A stretch of 64,000 nucleotides of DNA, from NCBI RefSeq assembly GCF_009467825.1, contig NZ_WIOK01000012.1:45531-109530 (forward strand). The letters are read 5' to 3'. Under the pieces are notes generated by a model. It had not been told where the DNA came from. It made no database searches and saw only the letters and a program-made list of their open reading frames with translations. The stretch comes from Cyclobacterium xiamenense. Lineage in GTDB: Bacteria; Bacteroidota; Bacteroidia; Cytophagales; Cyclobacteriaceae. The position numbers were made by a program, and so were the translations under genes. This document shows, piece by piece, positions 37,865-55,480 of this stretch (position 1 is its first letter; each line of letters starts with the position of its first letter).

Positions 37865-38272
37865 ATGAAAAGCAGGTATAAAATTTTTGCTATCGATGAT
37901 GAGCCTTCTGTCTTGCTGATCATCCAACATTACTTCAAAGGTAAATTTGAAGTGAACGTTTTCAATAAGCCTGCAGATGCCGTTGCTACCATGCACGAGG
38001 GTAATCTGCCGGATATTATTATTTGTGATCTAAATATGCCTGAAATCAGCGGAACCGAATTTGTTGAATTAATTCGTGCGAGTGGTTTTTTCTCGGCGAT
38101 CCCGCTGATTGTTCTTTCTGCCACCGAATCCTCCGAAAAGAAGATTGATATTTTAAATCTTGGTGCGGACGATTTTATGGTAAAACCATTCAACCCAAAG
38201 GAATTGGAAGCCCGCATTAATTCCATCTTACGAAGGACTGGAAAACCAACATTGCAAACGATAAATGGATAA
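37865..38272 (+). CDS. Single-domain response regulator (CheY-like)
   Basis: 135 aa, only a receiver domain. Canonical residues are present: acidic pair in IDDEPS, phospho-acceptor Asp in IICDLNMPEISG, Ser/Thr in VLSATESS and Lys in FMVKPFN. No output domain. Its stop lies 8 bases inside the next gene, which encodes a receiver-like domain fused to a sugar transferase, so the two are translationally coupled. It likely relays phosphate to, or docks on, that protein; the kinase is unknown but a hybrid kinase with Hpt lies at 51344. Confidence 0.92.
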   Translation: MKSRYKIFAIDDEPSVLLIIQHYFKGKFEVNVFNKPADAVATMHEGNLPDIIICDLNMPEISGTEFVELIRASGFFSAIPLIVLSATESSEKKIDILNLGADDFMVKPFNPKELEARINSILRRTGKPTLQTING

Positions 38273-39464
38273 ATCTGTCCGAAAAATTGCGTTGATTTCC
38301 GAAAATCAACGCATCGTTGACGAGGTCACGCAAGCAGTGGATGGCGTATTCGAGATGAATACCTTTTCGAATGGCATTACCTTTTACAATCACCTATCTA
38401 AGTTAAAGGGAGATTTTTTCATGGTCTTGAGTGATTCTTCGATGATGGGAGTTCATGGACTTCCGTTGAAGCAGACCATAGAAAAATTGGGTTTTGGCCA
38501 CCTACCGTTTTTCTTGCTGGTGGATCAGGCTAGCCGGGAAGAGATCTATCAGGCAATCAAGCAGGGAGTTTCGGATTTCATCATGAAACCCATTGATCCA
38601 GGGAAGTTATTGACCCGCCTTGAGTTTCAGGTTCGCCATCCTATTGGCAAAATCAAGGAGTCCGAAATCACACCGGTCAAAGAATACAAGATGCCGTTGA
38701 TCAAACGATTATTCGATATCGTTGTGTCCGGGCTTATTCTGATTGCCCTGTCTCCCTTGTTCCTGATTGTTTCCATTTTGATTAAATGGGAGTCCCGAGG
38801 TCCCGTTTTTTACTATTCTTACCGCGTTGGAACCGGATACACGATTTTTAAATTTTATAAATTTCGATCAATGGATCCGGATGCAGATGCCAAATTGCAA
38901 CAACTGAAACACCTCAACCAATACCAAAAGGCAGAAGATCCGGCGCAGGAAGAAACGGCGGCCCCTTCTATTTCTGAAGTGAAGGAGTTGTGTGAATTTT
39001 GCGAACAAGCTGGCGGTGGTTGCTTGCAGCCCATGTACGATGATAACAAAATGGTCTGCGAGAAAATTCTTTTGGCAAAAAAGGCTGGCAATCAGGAAGC
39101 CGCCTTTATCAAAATCAAAGACGACCCCAGAGTCACCCGGATTGGTAAATTTATCCGGAATACCAGCATCGACGAGTTGCCCCAGCTATGGAATGTACTG
39201 CGAGGCGACATGTCCCTGGTAGGCAATCGTCCGTTGCCCTTATACGAGGCTGAAAAGATCACCACGGACAAGTATTCCTTGCGTTTTTTGGGACCTGCGG
39301 GGATCACCGGCCTTTGGCAAGTAGAAAAACGGGGAAGAGGCGAAATGTCGGAAGAAGAACGATTGAGTTTGGATAACGACTACGTCAAGAATTTTTCCAT
39401 TTGGTTTGACCTAAAAATTCTACTGCGTACCGTTCCGGCATTGTTTCAAAGCGAAAACGTTTGA
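38265..39464 (+). CDS. Receiver-like domain fused to initiating phosphoglycosyl transferase
   Basis: 399 aa. Residues 1-125 form a receiver-like domain: Asp57 aligns with the phospho-acceptor and Lys108 (FIMKPID) is kept, but the acidic pair is Ser-Glu and the Thr is Val86. Residues 144-399 are a WbaP/PglC-type polyprenyl phosphate sugar transferase: KRLFDIVVSG, membrane segment about 153-173, FKFYKFRSM, catalytic Asp303-Glu304 in SIDELPQLWN, GDMSLVGNRPLPLYEA and GPAGITGLWQVEKRGRG. Between 205 and 285 is an insert with Cys243, Cys246, Cys253 and Cys265, a possible metal site. It would attach the first sugar phosphate to undecaprenyl phosphate. Coupled to the response regulator upstream. Confidence 0.9.
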   Translation: MDKSVRKIALISENQRIVDEVTQAVDGVFEMNTFSNGITFYNHLSKLKGDFFMVLSDSSMMGVHGLPLKQTIEKLGFGHLPFFLLVDQASREEIYQAIKQGVSDFIMKPIDPGKLLTRLEFQVRHPIGKIKESEITPVKEYKMPLIKRLFDIVVSGLILIALSPLFLIVSILIKWESRGPVFYYSYRVGTGYTIFKFYKFRSMDPDADAKLQQLKHLNQYQKAEDPAQEETAAPSISEVKELCEFCEQAGGGCLQPMYDDNKMVCEKILLAKKAGNQEAAFIKIKDDPRVTRIGKFIRNTSIDELPQLWNVLRGDMSLVGNRPLPLYEAEKITTDKYSLRFLGPAGITGLWQVEKRGRGEMSEEERLSLDNDYVKNFSIWFDLKILLRTVPALFQSENV

Positions 39465-40684
39465 TTGACCAGTTTCCAAAAAAGGGAAACACGTCCCTCC
39501 CAGGTGTTGGAAGCGGCTTCCCGGTACCGTTTTTCTGCTTTTTCCGGCAGGTCCTGCCGCAGTTCTTCGTCGATCGCCCGAATAAACGATTCCTTTTCGC
39601 TTTCCAAACGTATGTGCGGGTGAAACGATTGGATGTCCTCTGAAAAAGGCGTTGCCACCACGGGTTTTCCGGAGGCAAGGTATTCGTTTATTTTCAGGGG
39701 ATAAATACTTCTGGTCACGTCATTGCATAGAAACGGCAACACCAACAGGTCAAAATGGGCCAGGTATGCGGGCAGTTGTTCAATTTTTTTCGGTCCGGTA
39801 AAATGCAAGTTGGGGAGGGCGTCCAGGTCGATATTCGTATGCCCCCAATGGTTTCGTGGGCCTACAAGCACCACACTTTTTTCGGGGTTTTTCTCGCAGA
39901 TTCCCTTGATTATCTCGTAGTCGATCCGATGGCATATATTTCCGGTATACCCAATGATGGGCCTGGGTAGTTCCTGCAGCTCTTCGGGTAGCGGTAATGC
40001 TTTTTCGTAGGCGGATTTAAAAAGGGTAAAATCAGCCGCGTTTGGAAAATAGGCGACGGTATCTCCGGACAATTCCGACAATTCTTTTTGCAGAAGACGT
40101 GAGGTGGCCAGACTCAGATCGGCTTCTCGTATGGCTTCAACTTCCAAATAAGCACCGTGTTTGCGTAGATAGGGCTCAAGTGCCCGTATGTTGTCCCGTG
40201 ACTGATAAATGAAGGCCTTTGGGGAAAAACCCTCGGGGAGACTGCTCAAGTAAAGTGGGTTAAACGAATTAAAAAAAATAAAATCAGTCCACCCCAGATG
40301 CTGCAATCCTTTCGTTATTTGCCTGCTTAAGCGCAGGTTGTTCCATTCTGCCAATGTGCGGTAGAGCCAGCCCGGTGGTAACCAATTAATCGGTAGCATG
40401 AGCGGGGGAGTCAGTGCGTATAAGTTGGGTCCGTAATCGGGAAGCGGTATCAGGCAATTTTCTCCGAAAAGCAGGGCCCGCTTTCTTGCCTTTACGCTTG
40501 GTTTTTTTCGTTCCCGAATAAAATCCAGTAAGGTAAAGGGGTAGTCAACGTAGACCACCACCTGGTCCCGGGCGAAGGTTTTGGCAAGGGACCAGGAAGC
40601 CGAGGAAAAGTCGCCGTCCCAACGAGACATACTGGTCATTACGAGTGGTAGCTGTTTAAATTTGGAAAGAGAAAAATTGCGCAT
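39446..40684 (-). CDS. Glycosyltransferase, GT-B fold (group 1 type)
   Basis: 412 aa from ATG 40684 (a TTG at 40729 would add 15 residues). GT-B architecture: N-terminal domain with VYVDYPFTLLDFI, FFNSFNPLYLSSL; C-terminal donor-binding domain with RPIIGYTGNICHRIDYE, VVLVGPRNHWGH, LPAYLAHFDLLVLPF and IYPLKINEYLASGKPVVATPF, the Glu of which is the usual E-x7-E-like site. Likely adds a sugar to the lipid-linked exopolysaccharide unit. It overlaps the convergent transferase gene by 19 bases and diverges from the GT2 at 40775. Confidence 0.87.
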   Translation of the reverse strand: MRNFSLSKFKQLPLVMTSMSRWDGDFSSASWSLAKTFARDQVVVYVDYPFTLLDFIRERKKPSVKARKRALLFGENCLIPLPDYGPNLYALTPPLMLPINWLPPGWLYRTLAEWNNLRLSRQITKGLQHLGWTDFIFFNSFNPLYLSSLPEGFSPKAFIYQSRDNIRALEPYLRKHGAYLEVEAIREADLSLATSRLLQKELSELSGDTVAYFPNAADFTLFKSAYEKALPLPEELQELPRPIIGYTGNICHRIDYEIIKGICEKNPEKSVVLVGPRNHWGHTNIDLDALPNLHFTGPKKIEQLPAYLAHFDLLVLPFLCNDVTRSIYPLKINEYLASGKPVVATPFSEDIQSFHPHIRLESEKESFIRAIDEELRQDLPEKAEKRYREAASNTWEGRVSLFWKLVNQTFSL

Positions 40685-40774
40685 AAAAATCTTGTTTTTT
40701 ATCGGTGCAAGTTGTCGAAATGTATTCAAGAAATAGTAAATTTAGGATAAAAATAATCATTAATTTTTGAAGCT

Positions 40775-42022: not shown

Positions 42023-43354
42023 TTAACGTTTCGCTACTTTTTCCTGGATGGAACGTAGCATGCTGGGATACATGTTTACCGCCTGCAGCAGGCAGTGAAA
42101 AAAGCGGATCGGGAGGTATTTTCGCAAAATCAGGTGCTTGATCAATGCCGTACAAAAAACAGCAGTTACCAGGCCATACGCTGCCCCAGGTAATCCGATC
42201 CAGCGGATAAACAGCCAGCTCAACCCCGCTCCGTAGAGAAAAGTACCCAGGACCATGATCATGTTGATAAAGGGTTTGCCGATGGCATCCAAAAACACAC
42301 CGGATTGTCGGTCAAAGGGTTTGATTAATGCCAAAAACGCCATAATTCGAAGAAAAGGGACCGCCTCCAGGTAAGCCTCACCGGCAATAAGCAGGATTAT
42401 CTGCTGCGCAAACAGCAAGCAGAACAGCCAAAAAGGGACGGTCAGGCTCAACATCATTCCCAGTGTCTTTTCGTAAAGGGTTCCCAGGCTCGCTGTTTGC
42501 TTTGAGTCGTGGGCTTCCGCCGCTTTGGGGTAGCTGATGGAGGCAATGGAGTTTACCGGAATTTCGACCACATTCATCACCCGCCCCGCTGAATTGGCCA
42601 TGGCCACTTGTACGGGGGAGAGTAACGCGCCGAGGAGAAATTTATCCAGGCCATTGGTAAGCATGGATATCAGGTTGGTCCCAAACACGTATTTCCCAAA
42701 GTGAAATACCTTTGCCAGCCAATAATTTTTCGCCTTCCACTGCACCCGGAAATACGTACGTACCTGATAGGCAGACATCAGGGTGGCCAGGGCAAATGCG
42801 GCGTTTTGGTACCAGGCAAGTGCGTAGAGGCTCAGTTCCTGTTTGAACAAGTAGGACAGGGCGATGACCAAGAAAAACGGGAGGCTCTTGCTAATACCAG
42901 CAAGAAAGTAGGCTTTGAAGTCGTACCGGGCCTGCATCAACACCAAATTGTGGGTATGAAAAACCAATACCGGGAGAACCCAGGCATAAATGGTCAGAAT
43001 TTCTGCTAGTTTAGGCGCATGGAACAAGCGGGCAAGCGGAGAAGCCGCCAGCACGAGCAGCACAAGTATTAACAAAGTCAATGAGGTATTTAGCAAAAGC
43101 GCTGCTGTCTGTATTTTCCGTTGTACGGCTGAATTTTTACCAACGATAAATTTAATCATTCCATTCTGAATAAAGCCGTTTCGAGCCATGTCCAGAATAG
43201 CGGTGATGGTGATCAGCAGCACCCAAACCCCAAAATCCTCCGGTGACAAAATACGTACCAATAGCATGAAGCCGACAAAGCCCAGGAGAAAGTCCACCCC
43301 GCGGTGCATCATGGTAAAAAATCCACTTTTGAGCCAATATTTTTTATCGCTCAT
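42023..43354 (-). CDS. wzx: Polysaccharide flippase (Wzx/MATE-like)
   Basis: 443 aa from ATG 43354, which overlaps the stop of the upstream glycosyltransferase (ATGA). About 12-14 TM helices; the N-terminus (WLKSGFFTMMHRGVDFLLGFVGFMLLVRILSPEDFGVWVLL) is the classic Polysacc_synt start with the LSPEDFG motif. It would flip lipid-linked repeat units to the periplasm. Last gene of the six-gene minus-strand operon. Confidence 0.9.
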   Translation of the reverse strand: MSDKKYWLKSGFFTMMHRGVDFLLGFVGFMLLVRILSPEDFGVWVLLITITAILDMARNGFIQNGMIKFIVGKNSAVQRKIQTAALLLNTSLTLLILVLLVLAASPLARLFHAPKLAEILTIYAWVLPVLVFHTHNLVLMQARYDFKAYFLAGISKSLPFFLVIALSYLFKQELSLYALAWYQNAAFALATLMSAYQVRTYFRVQWKAKNYWLAKVFHFGKYVFGTNLISMLTNGLDKFLLGALLSPVQVAMANSAGRVMNVVEIPVNSIASISYPKAAEAHDSKQTASLGTLYEKTLGMMLSLTVPFWLFCLLFAQQIILLIAGEAYLEAVPFLRIMAFLALIKPFDRQSGVFLDAIGKPFINMIMVLGTFLYGAGLSWLFIRWIGLPGAAYGLVTAVFCTALIKHLILRKYLPIRFFHCLLQAVNMYPSMLRSIQEKVAKR

Positions 43355-44484
43355 GCTTTGGAGGCCAGGTTTTTGTAGCAATCCAATGTAATGACAGCTC
43401 CTTTTTTGTAGTCAAAAAGGGGCGGGCGCAGATAGCCCTTTTCAATGAGTTTGCTCCGTGCATCCGGATGGGCAAGCAAGTGTTCGATTCCCTCGCTAAG
43501 GCTGAGAGGAGCCGTGGGGTCGATCAGCAAGGCGGCATCGCCTGCCACCTCGGGCATGGAGGAGGTATTGGAGGTAACGACCGGACATCCGCAAGCCATC
43601 GCTTCCAAAATCGGCAGCCCGAAACTTTCCCGCAGCGACGGGTAAAGGAATAGGACCGCCTGGCTGTAAATGGCTGGAAGGTCTTCGTTGGGAATGTACC
43701 CGGTCAGGTGGATCGTATTGAGCAATTGGGGGGCACCGATCTCGGCGAGCATGGATTCCAGGATTTCTTTTCCGATGTCGGGCATGACCAGGTCCGGAAA
43801 GGGTACCTTTCGCGATTCCAACAGGGCGAGTGCTTTGAGCACGCCTCTGAGGTTCTTTTTGGGATCGGTATTGCCCAAAAACAGGATAAAGGTATTCGGT
43901 AAGGTGTACTTTTCCCGAACTGCTTTTTGCCTTTCCACCGGTTCTTTTTGGAAGTGCCCGGCCACGCCGTTGTATACGACCTGCACACGGGAGGAATCCA
44001 TGTGAAAATGCCGGGTGATGCGTTCTTGTTCGAAGGCCGAAACGGTAAAGATGGCGACGGCCTTTTTTACCACTGCAGGCACATTCCAACGGCGGTATAG
44101 ATTCCCGAAACGTTGGTACAGGGTGCCTTCTTTTAGGTTTATTTTTTCCAGGTAGATGATATCGTGAAGCGTAATTAGCAAAGGGACCCGGCAATTAACG
44201 GGGGCCGTATTGCTGGTGCAATGCAGTAGGTCCAGGCGGTAGGAGCGAACGGCTTTTGCCAAATGGTATTGCTCCCAGATGGGGTAGGGGCTGGACGGCA
44301 GCGGGACGATGGTAAAATTCTCAGTTGGGCGTAGCGGGGACGTGTCCTCCATCTCGTTGACAAAGATGAAATACTGGTTTTCCCGGTCCATTTCCTGTAG
44401 GTTTCGGATGAGTGCCAGGGCCACCATGTCCATTCCGTGTCGTTTTTTGCGAAAAATACGCTGCGCTTCAATTCCGATTCTCAT
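43351..44484 (-). CDS. Glycosyltransferase family 4
   Basis: 377 aa GT-B enzyme. N-terminal domain RIGIEAQRI...GMDMVALALIRNL; C-terminal donor domain FILFLGNTDPKKNL, HLTGYIPNEDLPAIYSQA and ESFGLPILEAMACGCPVVTS (the E-x7-E motif), MPEVAGDAALLIDP. Mannosyl- or similar hexosyltransferase in repeat-unit assembly. Overlaps its operon neighbours on both sides (4 and 17 bases). Confidence 0.93.
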   Translation of the reverse strand: MRIGIEAQRIFRKKRHGMDMVALALIRNLQEMDRENQYFIFVNEMEDTSPLRPTENFTIVPLPSSPYPIWEQYHLAKAVRSYRLDLLHCTSNTAPVNCRVPLLITLHDIIYLEKINLKEGTLYQRFGNLYRRWNVPAVVKKAVAIFTVSAFEQERITRHFHMDSSRVQVVYNGVAGHFQKEPVERQKAVREKYTLPNTFILFLGNTDPKKNLRGVLKALALLESRKVPFPDLVMPDIGKEILESMLAEIGAPQLLNTIHLTGYIPNEDLPAIYSQAVLFLYPSLRESFGLPILEAMACGCPVVTSNTSSMPEVAGDAALLIDPTAPLSLSEGIEHLLAHPDARSKLIEKGYLRPPLFDYKKGAVITLDCYKNLASKA

Positions 44485-45391
44485 GATGGACTAGGGTTAG
44501 GTTTTCCTGAATGTTTTGCATAAAAAGGCCGGCTACAAATCCGTTGAGGTACGTTTTGGCATGGGACCATTCGCCTTGGGTCAGGTGTACGAGGATATTC
44601 TTGGGCAAGGCCACCGCAAAGTAATAGGCCGCAGTAAAGAAAAACAGGGGCCAGGTCACGTTTCTGCGCAAAAAAAGCCAGCGGTTTCGGCTCATGTAAT
44701 AGGTTTTTAGCAGGGAGTTTTTCCCCACACTCATGGATTCTTTGTGTAAAATATGGCTTCCTGGCTCGTACCACAGCGTGTATCCTGCATCTTTGATGCG
44801 CTCGCAGTAGTCCATTTCCTCGTAATACAGAAAGTAGAGTTCGGCCATCATGCCAATTTCGAGGACCACAGACCTGGGAATAAACATGGCTGCTCCGTGC
44901 GCCAGTTGGGTGGGTTCGGCTATCTGGTACTGTCCGAGGTCCTTTTCCAGGTACCCTTTTCCTTTTCCCCTACCGGTAACGGGGTTGATCGCAGAAAATC
45001 CCGCATACTGTATGGTATCGGGCTGGTCGTAATACAAAATTTTGGGGCAAATAAGGCCGACCTTGGGGCTTGCCTTGGCCCGTTCGAGTAGCACGTCCAG
45101 TATGTCCTCCGCAACTTCGGTATCGTTGTTGATTAGGAAAAAATACTCGCCGGTTGCGACTTCCATACCCCGGTTGTTTCCCCCTGCGAATCCTTCATTT
45201 TTGGGGTTCCTAACCAGAATGGTGTTCGGGTAGCGTTCGGCAATTGCCCCAGGGTCTTCGCTCGACGCATTGTCAACGACAATGATTTCGACATGCGGGT
45301 AGCTCACCTTCTGAAAAGAGGCTAAAAAATCCAGCGTATGGGTCAATCCGTTGTAATTGATCGTAATGACAGAGATCAGTGGCTTATCCAT
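44468..45391 (-). CDS. Glycosyltransferase family 2 (rhamnosyltransferase-like)
   Basis: 307 aa from ATG 45391 (in-frame codons up to 45433 belong to the overlap with the Wzy gene). GT2 motifs: VITINYNGLTHTLDFL, VDNASSED, GFAGGNNRGM, LINNDTEVAED (DxD) and ELYFLYYEEMDYCERIKDAGY, as in WbbL-type rhamnosyltransferases; a C-terminal hydrophobic patch (about 265-285) suggests membrane association. Overlaps the upstream gene by 8 bases and the downstream one by 17. Confidence 0.93.
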   Translation of the reverse strand: MDKPLISVITINYNGLTHTLDFLASFQKVSYPHVEIIVVDNASSEDPGAIAERYPNTILVRNPKNEGFAGGNNRGMEVATGEYFFLINNDTEVAEDILDVLLERAKASPKVGLICPKILYYDQPDTIQYAGFSAINPVTGRGKGKGYLEKDLGQYQIAEPTQLAHGAAMFIPRSVVLEIGMMAELYFLYYEEMDYCERIKDAGYTLWYEPGSHILHKESMSVGKNSLLKTYYMSRNRWLFLRRNVTWPLFFFTAAYYFAVALPKNILVHLTQGEWSHAKTYLNGFVAGLFMQNIQENLTLVHHENRN

Positions 45392-46811
45392 GGTTATCCA
45401 ATTTGGTTGCGTTTGTTTCAAGTGAAGGAGCAAGGTACAGGTAGGCCCAGGACATGTAAAGAATGATCCCGGTGGGCATCTGACCCAACAGGGGGTTTCC
45501 TAGCGATGCAGCCGCAATTCCGACATAACCGGAGAAAAGCGCAAGTAGCTTTTGCCGAAGGCGGGGATCTTTTACCTGCCATATTCGGAACAGGGCCAGC
45601 AATGCAATAAAGGCGAGAATGCCTATGTGAAGGTATAGCCCAACGATACCCATTTCGGCCCAGATTTTTATAAACCAACTGTCGTTAGGTGTTTCAGCCA
45701 GGAAAGTACCCGGACTAAAGCGCTGTCCCCAAAATCCGGAAGTGCCAATGCCTCCGCCAAAAGGGCGGTTTTTCAGGTATTCTGAGAACTTTGCTTTGTT
45801 TTCCAACCGCACATTTAACGAGGCATCGTTGGGATCAAGTGCGGAGCGAAGCCTCCGAACCTGGTAGTTTTCATTGCCAATACTGGTAAACTTTAGAAAA
45901 ATAAAAACCAGGCTGAGTGCCGCCAATCCGATGGCCATTAATTTAAAATTTTTCGATGCAAAGAGGTAGGCCAATGATCCAGCCACTGGCACCATCAGGG
46001 CTCCGCGGGTACCGCTCATGATCATCAGGTAAAAAAATAAGAGCGCACAGCCCGCAAAGATCAGCCGTTGTTTTACCCGAAAAGGTCCAAGGGCAAGTAC
46101 CAGGGCGATCATGGCCGAATGGGCGATGCCCGCTCCAAATTGCCCCGCATCCGAAAAGAAGCTGAATACCCGGAGGTTTCCAAACAAAACGTGGGTGCTT
46201 CGGGACCCCTGGTCCAACCATCGGTTTTCCGCGTAGTCCAGGCCGATGTAATACTGCCGCAATCCCCAAAAAGACGCCAGGATCGAAAAAGCAAAAATGA
46301 TTTTGATCATTCGGTTCAGGTCTTTTTCGGTATTGGCGTACAACAAGGTTATCGGCACGGTCAGAAACATGTAGAGGGCTGTACCGCGTACCGCATAGAC
46401 CCAGGCGGTTATGCTTCTTGCCTCGGGATTAAAAATCTCCGCAACGTTATACGCCATCCAAATAAGGGTTACCGCAATTAGCGGGTTTTTTAGCTGGGTG
46501 AAGTCGGTTTTTATCCGATTGTGAAAAACGGCGCTGAGTAGCACCAGTACAAGCGCAAAATCTACCGTCAGCCCTAGGGGCAAATTGGGAATGTACCTGG
46601 CCGCTCCGATGGAAACAAAAGCGAGTACCAATGCTGTATACAAGGCATGGGAGGGGTGCCAGAGAATGAATACACCCATCGCCACTCCGATTGGTAGTGC
46701 AAAAAGCGTGGCGATTGCCAGGAACTCCGCATGCACCACCCATACACTGATCAGCAGGGAAAGAATCAATGCGACAACGGGGAAGGCGAGATGGGTTCGG
46801 GAATATTCCAT
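45384..46811 (-). CDS. wzy: O-antigen ligase/polymerase family membrane protein (Wzy-like)
   Basis: 475 aa with 10-12 hydrophobic helices and the Wzy_C-type periplasmic loop region (MSGTRGALMVPVAG and, later, NRPFGGGIGTSGF). Context between a Wzc-like protein and glycosyltransferases, with a Wzx in the same operon, supports polymerase over ligase. It would link repeat units on undecaprenyl diphosphate in the periplasm. Starts 5 bases after the co-polymerase stop codon at 46817. Confidence 0.85.
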   Translation of the reverse strand: MEYSRTHLAFPVVALILSLLISVWVVHAEFLAIATLFALPIGVAMGVFILWHPSHALYTALVLAFVSIGAARYIPNLPLGLTVDFALVLVLLSAVFHNRIKTDFTQLKNPLIAVTLIWMAYNVAEIFNPEARSITAWVYAVRGTALYMFLTVPITLLYANTEKDLNRMIKIIFAFSILASFWGLRQYYIGLDYAENRWLDQGSRSTHVLFGNLRVFSFFSDAGQFGAGIAHSAMIALVLALGPFRVKQRLIFAGCALLFFYLMIMSGTRGALMVPVAGSLAYLFASKNFKLMAIGLAALSLVFIFLKFTSIGNENYQVRRLRSALDPNDASLNVRLENKAKFSEYLKNRPFGGGIGTSGFWGQRFSPGTFLAETPNDSWFIKIWAEMGIVGLYLHIGILAFIALLALFRIWQVKDPRLRQKLLALFSGYVGIAAASLGNPLLGQMPTGIILYMSWAYLYLAPSLETNATKLDNHG

Positions 46812-46816
46812 GGCCG

Positions 46817-48955
46817 TCAGGAAAGGTATTTTTTAATCTTTGCCCGCAGAAAGGACCTGTCTCGTGGTATTTCCCCGTTCATGTCCTCCAGTTCATCGGA
46901 TTGCAGCCGGTTTAGCCAGACGGTATGCGGGATCTTGACCATTTCTTTCAGGCTTTCGTGAAAACGTTCGTCGGCGGGCTTCCAGTTGCGCTGCCCATCC
47001 AATACCATGACCAACACATTGGCCTGATTAATCAACGGATAGTTTAGTGGGACTTCTTCGATTGGGGGTAATTCCCATAAAATAAACTCCTTCTCCGTTT
47101 GAGCAATTCGCTCTTCCCAATAGGCATCCTGTTGGTCATAGAGGATGGCCTGTTGATCGTAAGAAAGCGTATCGCAAGGCATTTCCGCTGTGTCCCGCGA
47201 ATGTCCCCAGTACACAATATTTCGGTTTTGCAGAGTTAATTCTTCCACCAACTTGCGGATAAGGAAGGTTTTTCCTTCTGCGGGTTTAAGGCTGTAAAAA
47301 AGGACGATTTTTTTCCCCTGTTGGGGTAGGTATTTACCCAGGTTGTTGTAAACCTGTTTCCGCAGTCGGTTGTAGAGGATGTCTTTTTTTACTGCCTTAC
47401 TTAGGCCCAATTCATCAATCCATGCTCCGGAAACCTTCAGACCGGTTACTTTTTCAGCCTGTGGTACGGACTTAATGGTACGGTCAATAAAAAAAGAAAG
47501 GACCACGATCGAAAATCCGAAGAAACCGGTAGCCAGGCTGCCTCCGATAATAAAGATCATTCGTTTGGAAGGTAGGGGGGATTTGGGATAGTACGGCTCA
47601 TCGATCAGTTTTTGTGAAGAAGACATTTCCAGATCGTATTTTTGCAGGTAGGCCATGTTTAGTCCATGCAGAATGGATAGGTATTGGTCTTCGTTCACAC
47701 TTACTTCCCGTTCCAGTTTTTTTAGTTCCGCTCCCAGAGGCGCAAATTCCTGTATTTTTTCAGAGAGGTACGCTTTTCTGTTTTGCATGACGTCCAGGGC
47801 TTGCTTTTGTTCTTCGAAAAGAATTTTTAGCCGCAGCCATTCCTCCAGGATAGTCTCCCGTTGAATGCCTTGAAGGGAGTTGCTATTTTGAAACAATTCC
47901 TTCGAATCGGCTGCTATTTGGTCTTTCAATCGGACGATTTCCTTTTCCAATTGTGTGATTTTTGGTCCGGCGCTATTCTGGGCCTGTAAGCCCTGAATCT
48001 CCATGTCTCGCGCCACAATTTCGTCCTGAAGGGCGGAGATGTTTTGAATGATCACCTGCCTGTTGTCAAAGTTTTGAAACATTTCCTGGATTTCATTCAA
48101 ATTGGATTCGGTTCCGGATAGCAGGCGCTTGGACCGCTCTTCGTCCTGTTCGTGTTCCAATTTGGCGATATCCAGGTATTTCCCCTGTTCGTAATAGTTC
48201 AGGATTCGGTTTTCGCTCATGAAGGACTTGAGCCTATCTTCTGCCTCCCGTAATTTCCCCTGAGCGATGTCCAATTGGCTTTGGAAATAAGCAATGGAAT
48301 TGGTGTTCTCCATTTCCTTCATCCCCGAATAGCGTTCCATAAAGGCCTTAGCTAGCAAGCGCAGGGTATGGTAGCAAACACCGGCGTCGTCTGTACGGTA
48401 CGACAGCTCCATCATATCGCTGGAAAATTTTCTTGCGACACTCAAACGCTCCAGGATCTTCGTCATTGCATAATGCCGGTGCTCGCGCAGCAGGTATTCG
48501 ATGGGCGAGTTCGGCTCACGGATGTAGTGGGCTTTTATTCGGGCAAAGGTTTCCTTCTCGTCGCCGGGTACGGATAACTCCTGCCAAAGGGATGGTTGAA
48601 TGTGCTCCCGAAGATCCAGCCAGCAGTCATTGTGAATAACGGATGGGTCGGGCTCTGGGAGCGAGATATGTAAGGCAAGCAGGTGAAGCGAAGCCTCTTC
48701 GATGGTCTCCCGTGACTTTACCAACAGGGTAAGGTTATCAAACAAATTGTTAGAGGTGTAAAAATCCATGCGGATCACACCCCCATCGGTAGCTCCCCGG
48801 TTACTTGTTGGATTCGTGAACACGATGGTTTTGCTTTCGTATTCGCGTGTCATGTTTCGGGTGAGCATAAACACCCCCAGACCGACTAGAATCGGCGGTA
48901 AGATAATACGGAATTTATTCTTCCAAAGAAGGCGAAAAAGTTGTTTAAGGCTCAT
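46817..48955 (-). CDS. Wzc/GumC-like polysaccharide co-polymerase with degenerate kinase domain
   Basis: 712 aa. TM1 at about 15-33, large periplasmic region with coiled coils (about 215-430), TM2 at about 462-485, then a cytoplasmic BY-kinase-like domain. The Walker A region reads SLKPAEGKTFL (Gly561-Lys562-Thr563), without the usual Gly before it; a clear Walker A' (DxDLR.P) is missing at IVYWGHSRDT, and there is no Tyr cluster at the C-terminus. It probably controls chain length and links to export, with doubtful autokinase activity. The start codon overlaps the end of the TolC-like gene by 11 bases. Confidence 0.87.
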   Translation of the reverse strand: MSLKQLFRLLWKNKFRIILPPILVGLGVFMLTRNMTREYESKTIVFTNPTSNRGATDGGVIRMDFYTSNNLFDNLTLLVKSRETIEEASLHLLALHISLPEPDPSVIHNDCWLDLREHIQPSLWQELSVPGDEKETFARIKAHYIREPNSPIEYLLREHRHYAMTKILERLSVARKFSSDMMELSYRTDDAGVCYHTLRLLAKAFMERYSGMKEMENTNSIAYFQSQLDIAQGKLREAEDRLKSFMSENRILNYYEQGKYLDIAKLEHEQDEERSKRLLSGTESNLNEIQEMFQNFDNRQVIIQNISALQDEIVARDMEIQGLQAQNSAGPKITQLEKEIVRLKDQIAADSKELFQNSNSLQGIQRETILEEWLRLKILFEEQKQALDVMQNRKAYLSEKIQEFAPLGAELKKLEREVSVNEDQYLSILHGLNMAYLQKYDLEMSSSQKLIDEPYYPKSPLPSKRMIFIIGGSLATGFFGFSIVVLSFFIDRTIKSVPQAEKVTGLKVSGAWIDELGLSKAVKKDILYNRLRKQVYNNLGKYLPQQGKKIVLFYSLKPAEGKTFLIRKLVEELTLQNRNIVYWGHSRDTAEMPCDTLSYDQQAILYDQQDAYWEERIAQTEKEFILWELPPIEEVPLNYPLINQANVLVMVLDGQRNWKPADERFHESLKEMVKIPHTVWLNRLQSDELEDMNGEIPRDRSFLRAKIKKYLS

Positions 48956-49721
48956 TTTTTCGGATTATTTGCGTCAATGTCACACCAATCAATAGTTCCA
49001 ATTTTTGAACGGCAACAAAAAAACTACTTCGCGCGTTTTCGTATTCCGATTGGGCTATGGTATGGATTTCTGCGTTCCTCATGTAACTGGACGCGTCCAG
49101 ATTACCTAGATTAAACTCCATTTCTACCTGCAATAGGTTGGTTCTCGCCTTTTCCTGCATCTGCATTCGGATATTCATCAGTCGCTGGGCGAGGATGAGG
49201 GTGTTGTATTGTTCGATTACTTGCTCGGCAATCACCAACTCCATTTCCCTGGTTTTATAATAGGTAGCCTCCATTTCCTGTTTTTGAAGATTGATCCGAT
49301 CGCCTCGGTTAAAAATCTCTGAGAGGGGGATACTTAGGTTGGCACCTGCCCGGTAACCGTTGGCAATATTCGACAGGTCGGCTCCCTGGGTTCCAGTGGT
49401 GACGATGGCTTGATTTCCATACCCGTAATCGATGTATCCACGCAATAAATTGGTCCAGGATTTTTTGGCAAGATTCAGTCGTGACTCTGCGGATCCAATC
49501 AGGGCTTCATTCAGGCGGATGGTCGGATGCTGAGCAATGGCCATGTCGATCAGGCTGTCCAATGGAGGCAATTGATCCTCAAGAGAAACATTCAAATCGA
49601 GGTCCTCGAAATAAGCTGCCGCCTGTTGGGCACGCAAGCCTTCGGAAAAGGTAAAAAATCCTAAAAAGTAAAACAGGCTCAGGAAAAGAGGCCTTGTAGG
49701 GTTTTTTAACATGAATTTCAT
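48945..49721 (-). CDS. Short TolC-family outer-membrane protein
   Basis: 258 aa, about half of a normal TolC (430-480 aa). Signal peptide ending LRAQQ (about residue 32); then one OEP-like repeat: LIDMAIAQHPTIRLNEALIGSAESRLNLAKKSW, GYRAGANLSIPLSEIF and the long helical stretch QVIEQYNTLILAQRLMNIRMQM to VQKLELLIGVTL. The reading frame is complete and overlaps the next gene, so it does not look like a broken gene. It leads the export operon and may supply the outer-membrane step in place of a Wza protein. A start at 49712 (second Met) is possible. Confidence 0.8.
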   Translation of the reverse strand: MKFMLKNPTRPLFLSLFYFLGFFTFSEGLRAQQAAAYFEDLDLNVSLEDQLPPLDSLIDMAIAQHPTIRLNEALIGSAESRLNLAKKSWTNLLRGYIDYGYGNQAIVTTGTQGADLSNIANGYRAGANLSIPLSEIFNRGDRINLQKQEMEATYYKTREMELVIAEQVIEQYNTLILAQRLMNIRMQMQEKARTNLLQVEMEFNLGNLDASSYMRNAEIHTIAQSEYENARSSFFVAVQKLELLIGVTLTQIIRKNEP

Positions 49722-50549: not shown

Positions 50550-50583
50550 TTTGTGAAGAAACGTATAAATGTATCCAGATAAA

Positions 50584-51282
50584 ATGAATCGTTGTGTAAT
50601 TATAGATGACGATGCGGCAAGCATTGAAGTGCTGTCGCATTACATTTCCAAAACAAAGTCACTGGACCTGGTGGCTAAATTTACGGATGCAATCGAGGGT
50701 TTAAACTTTTTGGTGGAAAAAAAAGGAACGATTGATTTGATTTTTCTGGATATTGAAATGCCGGAAATGAATGGCTTTGAAATCCTGAAACACAGCCAAT
50801 ACGATGGAGCGCTGATCGTCATTTCGGCCAATCACGAAAACGCCATATCGGCGTTTGAAACAAATGCTTGTTTTTACCTACCCAAACCCTTTTCCTACAC
50901 CCAATTCTTGAAGGGGATTGAAAAATTCAAAGAAGCCGAGGTACGCATCGATCCCAATTCCTACTCCAGGGATTTTATTTTCGTAAAGGACGACCGATTG
51001 TACAAGAAAATTCTCTTCGCTGACATTAGTTATTGCGAAGGAAAGGGAGACTATATCAGCCTGAAATGCAAGTCCCAGACCTATACCATCAAATCGACCA
51101 TTTCGAATTTCTTGGAGAAGTTGGCCGCCAATCCGGAATTTGTACAGGTACACCGCTCTTACGTGATCAACCTGCACTACCTAACGGATTTTGACAGCGA
51201 TACTGCGGTGGTGGATGGAAAAATTATTCCCATCGGTGCCAAGTACAAGGAACAGCTAAAAAACAGCGTTAATTTTCTATAA
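50584..51282 (+). CDS. LytTR-family response regulator
   Basis: 232 aa from ATG 50584; ATG 50569 is an alternative. Receiver domain 1-115 with CVIIDDDAAS, phospho-Asp in FLDIEMPEMNG, and Lys in YLPKPFS. LytTR DNA-binding domain about 130-230 with FVKDDRLYKKILFADISYCEGKGDYI and FVQVHRSYVINLHYL. Usually partnered with a LytS-type kinase, which is not adjacent; the hybrid kinase at 51344 converges on it. Likely regulates envelope or polysaccharide genes. Confidence 0.93.
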   Translation: MNRCVIIDDDAASIEVLSHYISKTKSLDLVAKFTDAIEGLNFLVEKKGTIDLIFLDIEMPEMNGFEILKHSQYDGALIVISANHENAISAFETNACFYLPKPFSYTQFLKGIEKFKEAEVRIDPNSYSRDFIFVKDDRLYKKILFADISYCEGKGDYISLKCKSQTYTIKSTISNFLEKLAANPEFVQVHRSYVINLHYLTDFDSDTAVVDGKIIPIGAKYKEQLKNSVNFL

Positions 51283-51343: not shown

Positions 51344-54300
51344 CTACTCTTCGTTGACGTGCCGTTGGATCAGTTTTGTCACCAGGGCATTTTCCTTTGA
51401 GAAATCATCTAGCATTTTTGCGATCGCCTTCTCCTCGAATCGTTCCAGTGATTCTAAATCCAATGCAATGGCATACAATGCGTCCAATCCGGCGGTGAGC
51501 GCCGAACCTTTCAACTTGTGTCCTTCGGAGGACAGCCCCTCCAGGTTTTTTTCAGAAAAGTGTTTTTTTAATACCTTATCCGACTGCGCAAGTTCTTTGA
51601 CGGTGAGCTTGAGTACTTCGTTGATCACCTCTGGTTCATCCCCCAGGTATTCCTTGACTTTGCCTAAATTAAAATGGTTGAGTGACTCCGTTTCCGTCAG
51701 GTTCACCGGCTCCGTCGGAATGGCTTCTGTGGGGGCCGCGGGTGCGGCTTCGCCGGAGTTCCCCACTTTTTTGGCAGGCAACCATTGTTCAAAAATGGTT
51801 CGAATATTTTTTTCTACGATCGGTTTGGCGACAAAATCCACCATTCCGGATGCCAGGCAGTTTTCGCGTTCTCCTTTGATATTGCCCGCAGTAATGGCCA
51901 CGATCGGAATATCTTTGAGCGCAGGGGATTGTTTGATTTTCTTTGTGGCTTCGTGACCACTCAAAACCGGCATTTGGATATCCATTAATATGATATCCGG
52001 TAGGTGTGCTTCCGCCATTTCAACCGCCGATAAACCGTCCGTGGCCTCTAGGATTTCCGTATCGGGCGACACCTTTAGAATGATGGTTTTTGCCAAAAAC
52101 ATGTTGATGGAATTGTCTTCAGCGATCAATACTTTAAAGGTATGGCGTAGGGATTCCTCTGAGACCGCTTCAGCGGCTGCTGATTTCGGAAGGGATGTGC
52201 CTGGATTGAGCTGAGCGAGGGCATCGTAAAGGTCCTTGATTTTGATAGGTTTGGCCAATTTGATGCGTATGCCCAATTCCCTGCATTTTTTATGGATGTA
52301 GTCATCGTCTGCCGAACTATGCAGTAGCACAATGGGCTGGTTGGCTTTTTCCCCGGAAAAATTATTTCGAATTTTTTCGGCAGTTTCCAATCCATCCATG
52401 TAGGGCATGTTTAGATCCATCAAGATGGTATCGAAGCCTCCATTCGACTCGATCTTTTGCAGCGCATCGAAACCGTTTGTCGCTTCCTCCATGTGAATGC
52501 TTTTTAAGGAAAACATTTCTTTTAGAATCAATCGGTTGTTTTCATTGTCATCCACCACCAGTACCTTTTTGATAAAGTCTGTATCGGTTTTTTTGATGCA
52601 GTCACCGTTTTCGGTGGTAAGCTCGATATCAAAATAAAATTGACTTCCCACACCCAATTTGCTATGTAGTTTCAACTCGGAGCCCATCATGGCCAATAGC
52701 TTGTTGGAAATGGTTAGCCCCAGACCGGTACCTCCGTATTTTTTGGTAGTGGAGCCGTCCTCCTGGGAAAATGCGTCAAAGATTTTCTTTTGGTTTTCCT
52801 CGGAAATGCCAATACCTGTATCCCGAACCTCAAAGCGGATGAGCTGTTTTCCATCCGGAAGATCCTGCAGGGTTTGGACTTTTAACTCAATCTCTCCTTC
52901 TTTGGTGAATTTTACTGCGTTGCCCAAAAGATTGATTAAAATCTGTTTGAGTCGTATATCGTCAATGTAGATAAAGCGGGGTAGCTCCTTTTCGAGATTC
53001 AGCAGCATTTCAACCCCTTTTTTCTGCGCCTGGTAGGAGACCACGTCGGTCGCCTGTCCTGCCAACTCAAAGACGTCCGTTTTGCTGATGTCCAATTCCA
53101 GTTTCCCTGCTTCAATCTTGGAAAAATCCAGGATGTCATTGATGATGTTGAGCAGGGTATTGGCCGACTGATTGACAATCCCGATGTATTGGTTCTGAAC
53201 CTCGTTCAGGTCGGTTTTTAAGAGCAGGTCCGTAAATCCAATAATGCCGTTGAGCGGGGTACGGATTTCGTGACTCATATTGGCCAGAAACTCGGACTTT
53301 GCCAGGCTGGCTTTTTCGGCAAGCTCTTTGGATTCCACCAGATTGCGCTCCAGGATATTGCGGTCAATGGCGTTAGAGATGCTGTTTGCAAAACTCTTTA
53401 ACAAGGACAATTCCGCCTGCGACCATTGCCTTTCCAGTTTGCAATCGTCGTATCCGGTAAAACCCCAAAAGCCCTCCTCCGTAAAAATCGGAATCGCCAG
53501 TATGGACTTGATATTTTGTTCTTCCAGAAATTCCCGGGTAGATGAACTCTCTGACATCTCCGAAAGAATGGCCTGAAACACTTCGTTGTTTTCCATGGGT
53601 TGGACAAAGTCGCCAAAAAAATTGATCGGGACATCCTGCAAATCTGGGTTATTGACTTGTGGTTCTACCTCATCGGCACTCCATTCAAACCGTTGGGACG
53701 TGAGGGTGGTGCCATCCGGCGCCTTGCTGTTTTCCCAGTAATATACCCGGTCCACATCGGCCGCCTTTCCGATGAGCTCCAGACTTCTGGAAATGGCCTC
53801 GTTTAGATTTCGATTCGAAAGCAATTCGTCGGTGGCTTTCGAAATGGCAGAAAGCATCTGTTCTTTCTGTATGAGTTGGTTTTCTCTATTCACTGCTTCG
53901 TTTATATCCTGAATGGTCCCAAATAGGTACAGGCATTTTCCCTCTTCAATGTGCGCTTCCCCGATACTGCGGACCCAAATTTCTGTTCCCGTAGCGGTTA
54001 CGATCTTTAATTTTTCATCCCAGGCTTTGCCGTATTCCCTGGCCAGGGAAAACAACTCTTCCATCCGTTCCCGGTAAAATCCATCTTTATAAAACCGGAA
54101 GGAATCCTGCAAATCTGGCTTGTAGCCATCCTCTACCTCAAAAATAGCTTTGGTGATATCGGTCCAACTCAGGAAATTTTTCTCCACATCGTATTTCCAT
54201 CCCCCGATTTTTGCCATCATGTGCGTTTGGTTGAGCAGCTCCTTGGCATTTTGGATGGTTCGTTCCAGACGAAGCCGCTCGGTGATGTCGATGGAATTAC

Positions 54301-55480
54301 CAATGACATAGCTCTCCCCCGCGTGGTCTTTTTCCAGGGTATTGCTGTACAACCACACCTTTAGGGTTCCATTTGCCTGACGGGTGGTCATCAGGCCCTG
54401 GGCTTTTCCATCGTTTTTTAATTCTCCAAAATAGCTGTCTATCTCCGAATGAAAACGAGACGGAATGATGTCCCATAGTTTTTTGGATAGCATTTCCTTT
54501 ACGGTGTAGCCCAGGAGCCGCGCACCGTAATTATTAAAGCTCAAGAAATTGCCCTCCAGATCGTGGGTTAACATCAATCCCTGACTATTTTCAAAAAAAG
54601 ACCGAAACTTTTCTTCACTGGATAGCAGCCGCTCCTCTTTGTCTTTTTCTTCCGTGATGTCCCTCCCAATAGCAAAAATCCACTTATTTTTCAGGTCCCC
54701 TGTAGCAGTCCAGGCAAAGGTTTTGTAGTCACCAGCCTGGGTTTTTAAGCGGTGATTGAAATTACTACTTGCTTCGCCTTTGATTAACTTGTTGATTTCT
54801 ACCATGGTTTGATCCACATCACTTGGATGGATGTAATCGGCCATGGGTTTTTCAGAGAGCTCCTCCTCGCCGTAGCCTAGCAAGGTTTCAAAAGCTGCAT
54901 TTACCTTGATAAATTTTCCGTCAAAACGAATGACGGTAATCAGGTCCTGCGATAGAGAAAGCGCCTTGCTTAAAATTCGATCCTCAAAAATCTCGGTTTT
55001 AATCCGTATCTGCTCCCATGTGGCCTTGGATAAAATACCCAGGTTTTCTTCAATCGTTTCGGTGTTTTCATGAGCGGTGCCGTCCAACACTACCAGGTAA
55101 CCCAAAATTTGTCCACCCGTTTCAGGGACCGGGTGCACAGCCAGGTACCCAATTTCTTTCATGTTCTGTAAAAATTCACTTTTCTCCAGCTCAGGGTATC
55201 TGGCTACGCTCCTGAGCTCCTGGAATTTTTCCGCGGAGGTTAGCCACAGATACAGAGGATCGGCCTCCGGGATGGATTGGGGTTGAATGAGCTCCGATTT
55301 GGACTTGAACCAAAGTCCCTCGGTATCCGGAAAAGCGATGAAAGCATGCGCGCATCCGGTGAGTTTTTTGGCTAACAACACGATACGGTCAAAATTTTCA
55401 TTGGGGACACCTTGTCCCAGGTAAAACCCGGAAGCCTTGGTGCCTTTGCTGTTACCTCTCAAAGAATTACCTTTATTCAT
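51344..55480 (-). CDS. Hybrid sensor histidine kinase (GAF-PAS3-GAF-HisKA-HATPase-REC2-Hpt)
   Basis: 1378 aa, no clear TM segment, so cytoplasmic. Approximate order: GAF 25-165; three PAS/PAC units 170-280, 285-400 and 410-530; GAF 545-710; HisKA with His737 in MSHEIRTPLNG; HATPase 840-955 (DIRLKQILINLLGNAVKFT, GTGLGLTISNKL); receiver 1 about 970-1085 (VVDDNENN, ILMDLNMPYMDG); receiver 2 about 1110-1225 (IAEDNSINM, ILMDIQMPVLSG); Hpt about 1270-1370 (EGHKLKGSALTAG). A complete multistep phosphorelay that could feed the solo response regulator at 37865. Family secure; partners inferred. Confidence 0.93.
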   Translation of the reverse strand: MNKGNSLRGNSKGTKASGFYLGQGVPNENFDRIVLLAKKLTGCAHAFIAFPDTEGLWFKSKSELIQPQSIPEADPLYLWLTSAEKFQELRSVARYPELEKSEFLQNMKEIGYLAVHPVPETGGQILGYLVVLDGTAHENTETIEENLGILSKATWEQIRIKTEIFEDRILSKALSLSQDLITVIRFDGKFIKVNAAFETLLGYGEEELSEKPMADYIHPSDVDQTMVEINKLIKGEASSNFNHRLKTQAGDYKTFAWTATGDLKNKWIFAIGRDITEEKDKEERLLSSEEKFRSFFENSQGLMLTHDLEGNFLSFNNYGARLLGYTVKEMLSKKLWDIIPSRFHSEIDSYFGELKNDGKAQGLMTTRQANGTLKVWLYSNTLEKDHAGESYVIGNSIDITERLRLERTIQNAKELLNQTHMMAKIGGWKYDVEKNFLSWTDITKAIFEVEDGYKPDLQDSFRFYKDGFYRERMEELFSLAREYGKAWDEKLKIVTATGTEIWVRSIGEAHIEEGKCLYLFGTIQDINEAVNRENQLIQKEQMLSAISKATDELLSNRNLNEAISRSLELIGKAADVDRVYYWENSKAPDGTTLTSQRFEWSADEVEPQVNNPDLQDVPINFFGDFVQPMENNEVFQAILSEMSESSSTREFLEEQNIKSILAIPIFTEEGFWGFTGYDDCKLERQWSQAELSLLKSFANSISNAIDRNILERNLVESKELAEKASLAKSEFLANMSHEIRTPLNGIIGFTDLLLKTDLNEVQNQYIGIVNQSANTLLNIINDILDFSKIEAGKLELDISKTDVFELAGQATDVVSYQAQKKGVEMLLNLEKELPRFIYIDDIRLKQILINLLGNAVKFTKEGEIELKVQTLQDLPDGKQLIRFEVRDTGIGISEENQKKIFDAFSQEDGSTTKKYGGTGLGLTISNKLLAMMGSELKLHSKLGVGSQFYFDIELTTENGDCIKKTDTDFIKKVLVVDDNENNRLILKEMFSLKSIHMEEATNGFDALQKIESNGGFDTILMDLNMPYMDGLETAEKIRNNFSGEKANQPIVLLHSSADDDYIHKKCRELGIRIKLAKPIKIKDLYDALAQLNPGTSLPKSAAAEAVSEESLRHTFKVLIAEDNSINMFLAKTIILKVSPDTEILEATDGLSAVEMAEAHLPDIILMDIQMPVLSGHEATKKIKQSPALKDIPIVAITAGNIKGERENCLASGMVDFVAKPIVEKNIRTIFEQWLPAKKVGNSGEAAPAAPTEAIPTEPVNLTETESLNHFNLGKVKEYLGDEPEVINEVLKLTVKELAQSDKVLKKHFSEKNLEGLSSEGHKLKGSALTAGLDALYAIALDLESLERFEEKAIAKMLDDFSKENALVTKLIQRHVNEE

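Follow-up and report, generated by a model that had tools for sequence, protein, structure and literature searches.

A solo response regulator paired with a pseudoreceiver-fused phosphoglycosyl transferase in Bacteroidota: a probable post-translational switch for the first step of polysaccharide synthesis

Many pathways draw on the same undecaprenyl phosphate and sugar nucleotides, and how the step that commits them to one polysaccharide is regulated is described as an open question in the available text of a recent study (PMC12802240). In a stretch of 64,000 nucleotides from Cyclobacterium xiamenense (contig NZ_WIOK01000012.1, positions 45,531 to 109,530; hereafter the window, in whose coordinates all positions are given), a phosphoglycosyl transferase (PGT) gene with a receiver-like N-terminus overlaps a gene for a response regulator with no output domain. 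This suggests that a phosphorylation signal may act on the polysaccharide-initiating enzyme itself and not on its gene, and raises the question of which of the two receivers would carry the signal. The features of the pair are:

37865..38272, + strand: single-domain response regulator of 135 aa, output domain absent (Pfam PF00072; residues conserved in relatives)
38265..39464, + strand: pseudoreceiver-PGT of 399 aa (PF00072 and PF02397, AlphaFold2 model, Foldseek matches to PglC and to receivers)
38265..38272, + strand: overlap of 8 bases between the two genes (ORF coordinates and sequence)
38265..38639, + strand: pseudoreceiver domain, PGT residues 1-125, (beta-alpha)5 fold with a degenerate phosphorylation site
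38697..38792, + strand: long helix, residues 145-176 (AlphaFold2 model, match to PglC/WbaP)
38925..39104, + strand: insert of about 60 residues (221-280) that splits PF02397 in two
39171..39176, + strand: Asp303-Glu304, candidate catalytic dyad, invariant in 62/62 family members

The domains and the overlap given in a preliminary description, made from the sequence, were borne out by the ORF coordinates and by Pfam. Translation of the two genes is possibly coupled through the overlap, which recurs with the same 8 bases in several congeners, gap sizes being different in other relatives. The next gene downstream (39446-40729) encodes a glycosyltransferase and lies on the opposite strand, which suggests an operon of just these two genes. 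Protein identity of the window to C. roseum, C. salsum and C. jeungdonense is 82-83%. Eight Bac_transf stretches were found in the genome of C. xiamenense, and since two of them are halves of the 38265-39464 gene, there are seven Bac_transf genes; among the flanks examined, a receiver fused to or near a PGT was seen only at this one.

The product of 37865-38272 matches the Response_reg profile over its complete length (1-111 of 111, 9.4e-24) and no second Pfam family was found above cut-off, as is characteristic of a single-domain (CheY-like) regulator. Its phosphorylation set is complete (Asp11, Asp12, Asp55, Ser85 and Lys107), and the same holds for 87 of the 93 paired solo regulators in the pooled, non-redundant collection, in which the acidic pair, the Asp, the Ser/Thr and the Lys are all present. 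The site is incomplete in the remaining six (L028, L108, L118, L126, L129 and L132); L028 lacks the Asp, and its PGT has no N-terminal domain. The PGT N-terminus also matches Response_reg (residues 14-119, 2.7e-9, 37.6 bits against a cut-off of 30.2), with Asp57 and Lys108 in place, Ser12-Glu13 at the positions of the acidic pair (Asp11-Asp12 in the neighbour) and Val86 at the Thr/Ser position. The preliminary description had read these residues in the same way, correctly for the window protein and for 12 relatives that carry both Asp57 and Lys108; for the family it does not hold. Among 89 fused domains, counted only in proteins of at least 340 aa, the full catalytic set was present in none, position 57 was Glu in 25, Asp in 24, Gln in 11 and Val in 5, and position 108 was Lys in 20. 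Position 57 becomes Glu even inside the genus (L010, L011), and the earlier reader was misled because the window protein happens to keep both residues. A full set in 87/93 solo regulators against 0/89 fused domains identifies the latter as a pseudoreceiver, probably a docking adaptor.

The degenerate domain nevertheless keeps the receiver fold. In the AlphaFold2 model of the window PGT (43-row alignment, mean pLDDT 75.1, pTM 0.55), residues 1-125 form a complete (beta-alpha)5 topology of five alternating strands and helices (block pLDDT 75-93), beyond which come helix 145-176 and the PGT domain; as a whole the model is of moderate quality and so does not fix the placement of the pseudoreceiver relative to the PGT. 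Foldseek retrieved solved receivers after the PglC/WbaP entries (3nns, E 4.1e-7, TM normalised by target 0.84), which disposes of the concern, raised with the preliminary description, that residues 1-125 might not adopt a receiver fold. The same N-terminal topology was obtained for L074, a divergent member of 361 aa without the cysteine motif described below, whose model matches receivers in Foldseek and also WspR and PleD. In addition, 9 of 12 listed N-termini missed by the receiver HMM were taken to a single profile-profile comparison, where they aligned to the solo regulators with a probability of 96.5. A profile of the fused domains scored a median of 81.5 bits on the paired regulators and 32.55 on 56 other receivers of the family loci, 50 of which sit in longer proteins. 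As far as sequence comparison goes, this is consistent with an origin of the fused domain by duplication of the partner regulator. The window regulator and its fused neighbour share 24.6% identity over 126 columns. A signature, [RK]xSG[FYLH][FYLH], was observed in the alignment in 54/93 paired regulators and in 0/56 other receivers, and is a candidate for the site of contact with the partner.

How general the pairing is was evaluated in two collections. For the first, L081-L087 (of 49 loci), which either matched only in the receiver part or are ordinary PGTs with no receiver, were left out, and identical proteins were collapsed. Of the 62 family members that remained, 61 had directly upstream a solo regulator, taken as a receiver protein of less than 180 aa on the same strand and at -60 to 300 bases from the PGT. 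L028 and L029 have the regulator and lack the N-terminal domain; L033 has the domain without an upstream regulator. The hosts include Cyclobacterium, Lunatimonas, Pleomorphovibrio, Limnovirga, Mucilaginibacter and Parapedobacter, along with several Chitinophagaceae and Bacteroidales metagenome genomes. In a sample of Bacteroidota, a few of whose genes also belong to the first set, at least 44 of 395 genomes had a match at E <= 1e-60; the true number may be higher, since only a small number of candidates was scored in each genome. The 47 matches comprised 35 proteins of at least 340 aa with the N-terminal domain and 12 of less than 320 aa without it. The regulator was upstream in 34 of the 35 (the exception being L093) versus 4 of the 12 (Fisher 1.3e-5, with relatedness ignored, protein length as the criterion, and the window gene and L038 added to 45 rows); L105, a partial receiver match, was counted as having a regulator, and its exclusion gives 3/12 and p 1.5e-6. 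Co-occurrence across Bacteroidota, which had been put forward as a check on the initial reading, was thus confirmed. As to the possibility, voiced at the same time, that homologues commonly lack both Asp57 and the neighbouring regulator, loss of the former proved common and loss of the latter was almost never seen.

Other PGTs behave differently. No REC-coding ORF, fused or nearby, was found in 36 other-PGT loci (six from the same genome and 30 large ones; mostly large, high-scoring PGTs, with at least 468 bases upstream per gene in at least one locus), nor was a receiver found in 20 small-PGT loci from other genomes (184-271 aa, at least 1362 bases upstream). A chance neighbourhood of regulator and PGT is ruled out by these 0/56 loci. 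Five loci (L028, L029, L103, L104 and L116) combine the regulator with a PGT that has no pseudoreceiver, so this domain is not required for the two genes to stay together. L103, L104 and L116 are possibly a simpler form of the same control, L103 and L104 having a receiver-bearing kinase-like ORF upstream. A single polypeptide uniting the regulator, the pseudoreceiver and the PGT was not seen among the family ORFs, the longest of which has 430 aa.

The enzyme itself is a monotopic PGT of the small type. Bac_transf (PF02397) matches it in two stretches (2.2e-61, 207 bits against a cut-off of 27), the best Foldseek match of the model is PglC (E 5.0e-11) and WbaP is on top in a sequence search of the PDB (1.9e-37). 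With PglC and WbaP it shares the catalytic domain; to our knowledge, neither of them has a receiver domain. From the match to both and from general knowledge, we take helix 145-176 to be the re-entrant membrane helix of monotopic PGTs, and Asp303-Glu304 is presumably their catalytic dyad. Large monoPGTs of the WbaP/EpsZ type are recognized by a four-helix transmembrane bundle and a PF13727 DUF; in the window PGT, the N-terminus is the receiver, the model shows a single long helix ahead of the catalytic domain, and PF13727 gave no Pfam match at E <= 0.1.

One element of this domain, absent from the preliminary description, is the insert that interrupts it behind the LNQY motif. It carries a CxxC-x6-C-x11-C motif at residues 243-265 (C243, C246, C253 and C265; codons 38991-39059), and the two stretches that match WbaP leave most of it, with three of the four cysteines, uncovered between them. 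The CxxC...C...C pattern is present in 62 of 103 pooled family members, 58/89 with the N-terminal domain and 4/14 without it. Counting cysteines in the insert stretch, 61 of the 103 have four, one has five, 38 have none and two have one, the stretch being unrecognised in one, so that the motif is practically all-or-none. It is likely a structural metal site, zinc or iron-sulfur. The insert was also observed in L106 and L111-L113, where pseudoreceiver and upstream same-strand regulator are absent.

The preliminary description knew of no characterised example of such a layout, and this has to be corrected. According to the available text of PMC12802240, the phosphorylated single-domain regulator EpsW of Myxococcus xanthus activates the initiating PGT EpsZ; the stimulation is post-translational and direct interaction is suggested. 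Proximity labelling is enhanced by phosphorylation, EpsZ activity in Salmonella is higher with EpsW, and modelling suggests a stabilised dimer. EpsW is reportedly a substrate of DifE (PMC4671073). The pair studied here likewise joins a single-domain regulator and an initiating monotopic PGT in a Wzx/Wzy-type exopolysaccharide pathway. It differs in that EpsZ belongs to the large monoPGTs and has a cytoplasmic DUF, with no receiver mentioned in that text, whereas the window protein is a small monoPGT with a pseudoreceiver. The NCBIfam models do not assign the window proteins to EpsW (NF041866, 54.5 bits against a cut-off of 200) or to EpsZ (160 bits against 800). The same text describes small monoPGTs as functional monomers, so the dimer mechanism of EpsZ may not carry over; it also cites receiver domains found earlier in small monoPGTs (O'Toole et al., 2021, PNAS), fusions to which the window protein is similar in this respect. 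The DUF of large monoPGTs is described as dimerising and perhaps regulatory in the available text of PMC10942596, and by analogy the pseudoreceiver may take its place here. No experimental report on a regulator/PGT pair in Bacteroidota was found among the literature matches listed.

A second parallel came from the PDB, where a sequence search with residues 1-132 returned PleD first, with two matched stretches. PleD, like WspR a diguanylate cyclase, has a receiver and a second receiver-like domain before the enzyme, in one chain and with a GGDEF output. In our pair the functional receiver is made as a protein of its own, and a membrane PGT takes the place of the GGDEF output.

The source of the signal was looked for in the surroundings of the pair, which include:

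42023..43381, - strand: Wzx-type flippase (Pfam Polysacc_synt_3)
45384..46811, - strand: Wzy/O-antigen-ligase-type polymerase (Pfam Wzy_C)
46817..48955, - strand: Wzz-type chain-length determinant (Pfam Wzz)
51344..55480, - strand: candidate kinase, a hybrid histidine kinase of 1378 aa with the order PAS-GAF-HisKA-HATPase-REC-REC-Hpt (Pfam)

Flippase, polymerase and Wzz-type protein, together with glycosyltransferases, define a Wzx/Wzy-type exopolysaccharide cluster. Adjoining the Wzz-type gene, 48945-49721 (- strand) encodes a short protein of 258 aa of the outer-membrane-efflux type (OEP, PF02321), in the spot where a Wza-type exporter might be expected. A LytTR-type response regulator gene (50569-51282, + strand), convergent with that of the hybrid kinase, is also part of the cluster. 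It is plausible that the 51344-55480 kinase acts on the regulator/PGT pair described here. A syntenic hybrid kinase gene with Hpt lies downstream in 8/8 other genomes of the genus that were checked (8 of 11) and in G029, of the same family, and the C. xiamenense genome has 38 HisKA matches with only five Hpt matches above cut-off. Kinase-like ORFs were found upstream of the regulator in L054, L149 (G046), L103 and L104, and upstream of the PGT in L093, where the regulator is absent; no kinase gene was found in the flanks examined of G027, G048 and G206.

From the domains, the fold, the conservation, the split of the catalytic residues and the linkage computed here, we infer that the two genes would act as one bicistronic unit controlling the initiation of polysaccharide synthesis, with the solo regulator as the phosphorylatable part and the pseudoreceiver as a permanent docking adaptor, itself unphosphorylated. 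The regulator, phosphorylated possibly by the hybrid kinase/Hpt protein, would bind the pseudoreceiver and change the position or the oligomeric state of the membrane-bound PGT, which in turn would raise, or less likely lower, the transfer of sugar-1-phosphate to undecaprenyl phosphate. A dedicated and widely conserved link between solo regulator and PGT makes post-translational control the best reading, and we consider this mechanism probable. Of the original proposal, control by phosphorylation or docking without transcription, the post-translational character is therefore retained, while phosphorylation of the fused receiver is rejected on conservation. Control of the PGT in cis by a fused receiver phosphorylated at Asp57 could be thought of from the joint presence of Asp57 and Lys108 in the window protein and its 12 relatives, but it is highly improbable, given that no fused domain has the whole site and that Glu, Gln or Val often occupies position 57 with the rest of the system kept.

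The sign of the effect leads to another explanation, in which the regulator, phosphorylated or not, would hold the PGT off until a change in phosphorylation releases it. The genomic evidence is the same as for activating docking and leaves the sign free; we nonetheless regard this as unlikely, the only characterised parallel found, EpsW-EpsZ, being an activating one in the available text of PMC12802240. The two products might also be co-transcribed and act separately, the regulator as a shuttle or phosphate sink in a hybrid kinase relay and the pseudoreceiver only in homodimerisation or localisation of the PGT. This would fit the presence in the cluster of a hybrid kinase with Hpt, the resemblance of the L074 model to WspR and PleD, and the service that single-domain regulators can render in phosphorelays (PMC12802240, available text), but across the phylum sample the regulator follows the PGT, above all the pseudoreceiver, while a kinase is near in some lineages only, and separate action thus seems quite unlikely.

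The principle, exemplified by EpsW-EpsZ, and the existence of receiver-PGT fusions are already known; new are the split design of active regulator and pseudoreceiver, its conservation across the phylum, and the all-or-none four-cysteine insert. If docking of the phosphorylated regulator on the pseudoreceiver does control the PGT, direct phospho-control of PGTs would be no myxobacterial speciality and would recur across Bacteroidota with a distinct architecture, which lacks the EpsZ-type transmembrane bundle and would thus make the mechanism directly testable. For annotation, where a pseudoreceiver-PGT has a solo regulator encoded immediately 5' of it, that protein probably regulates the PGT, and no phosphorylation site should be assigned to the fused domain. 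A more far-reaching version, which we offer with considerable doubt, would have a duplicated receiver give rise throughout the phylum to a dedicated two-protein switch, one copy being a phosphorylatable soluble switch and the other a site-less docking and dimerisation module that makes a small monoPGT of the monomeric class phospho-controllable; the four-cysteine insert would then supply a second, metal or redox, input, and initiation would work as an AND gate.

Searches were extended to other phyla. Within the phylum of L086 (Planctomycetota), 0 of 149 genomes gave a match at E 1e-45, an empty result that is no proof of absence. An Ignavibacteriae-centred search was left uncounted because many of its matches share coordinates with those of the Bacteroidota sample. 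In the phylum of L087 (Chloroflexales), 2 of 151 genomes gave a match, confined to the PGT part, and no receiver was found among the longer + strand ORFs of the two loci. In this last phylum, L195:184-1866, read by eye, encodes a PGT fused to a nucleotidyltransferase-like N-terminus.
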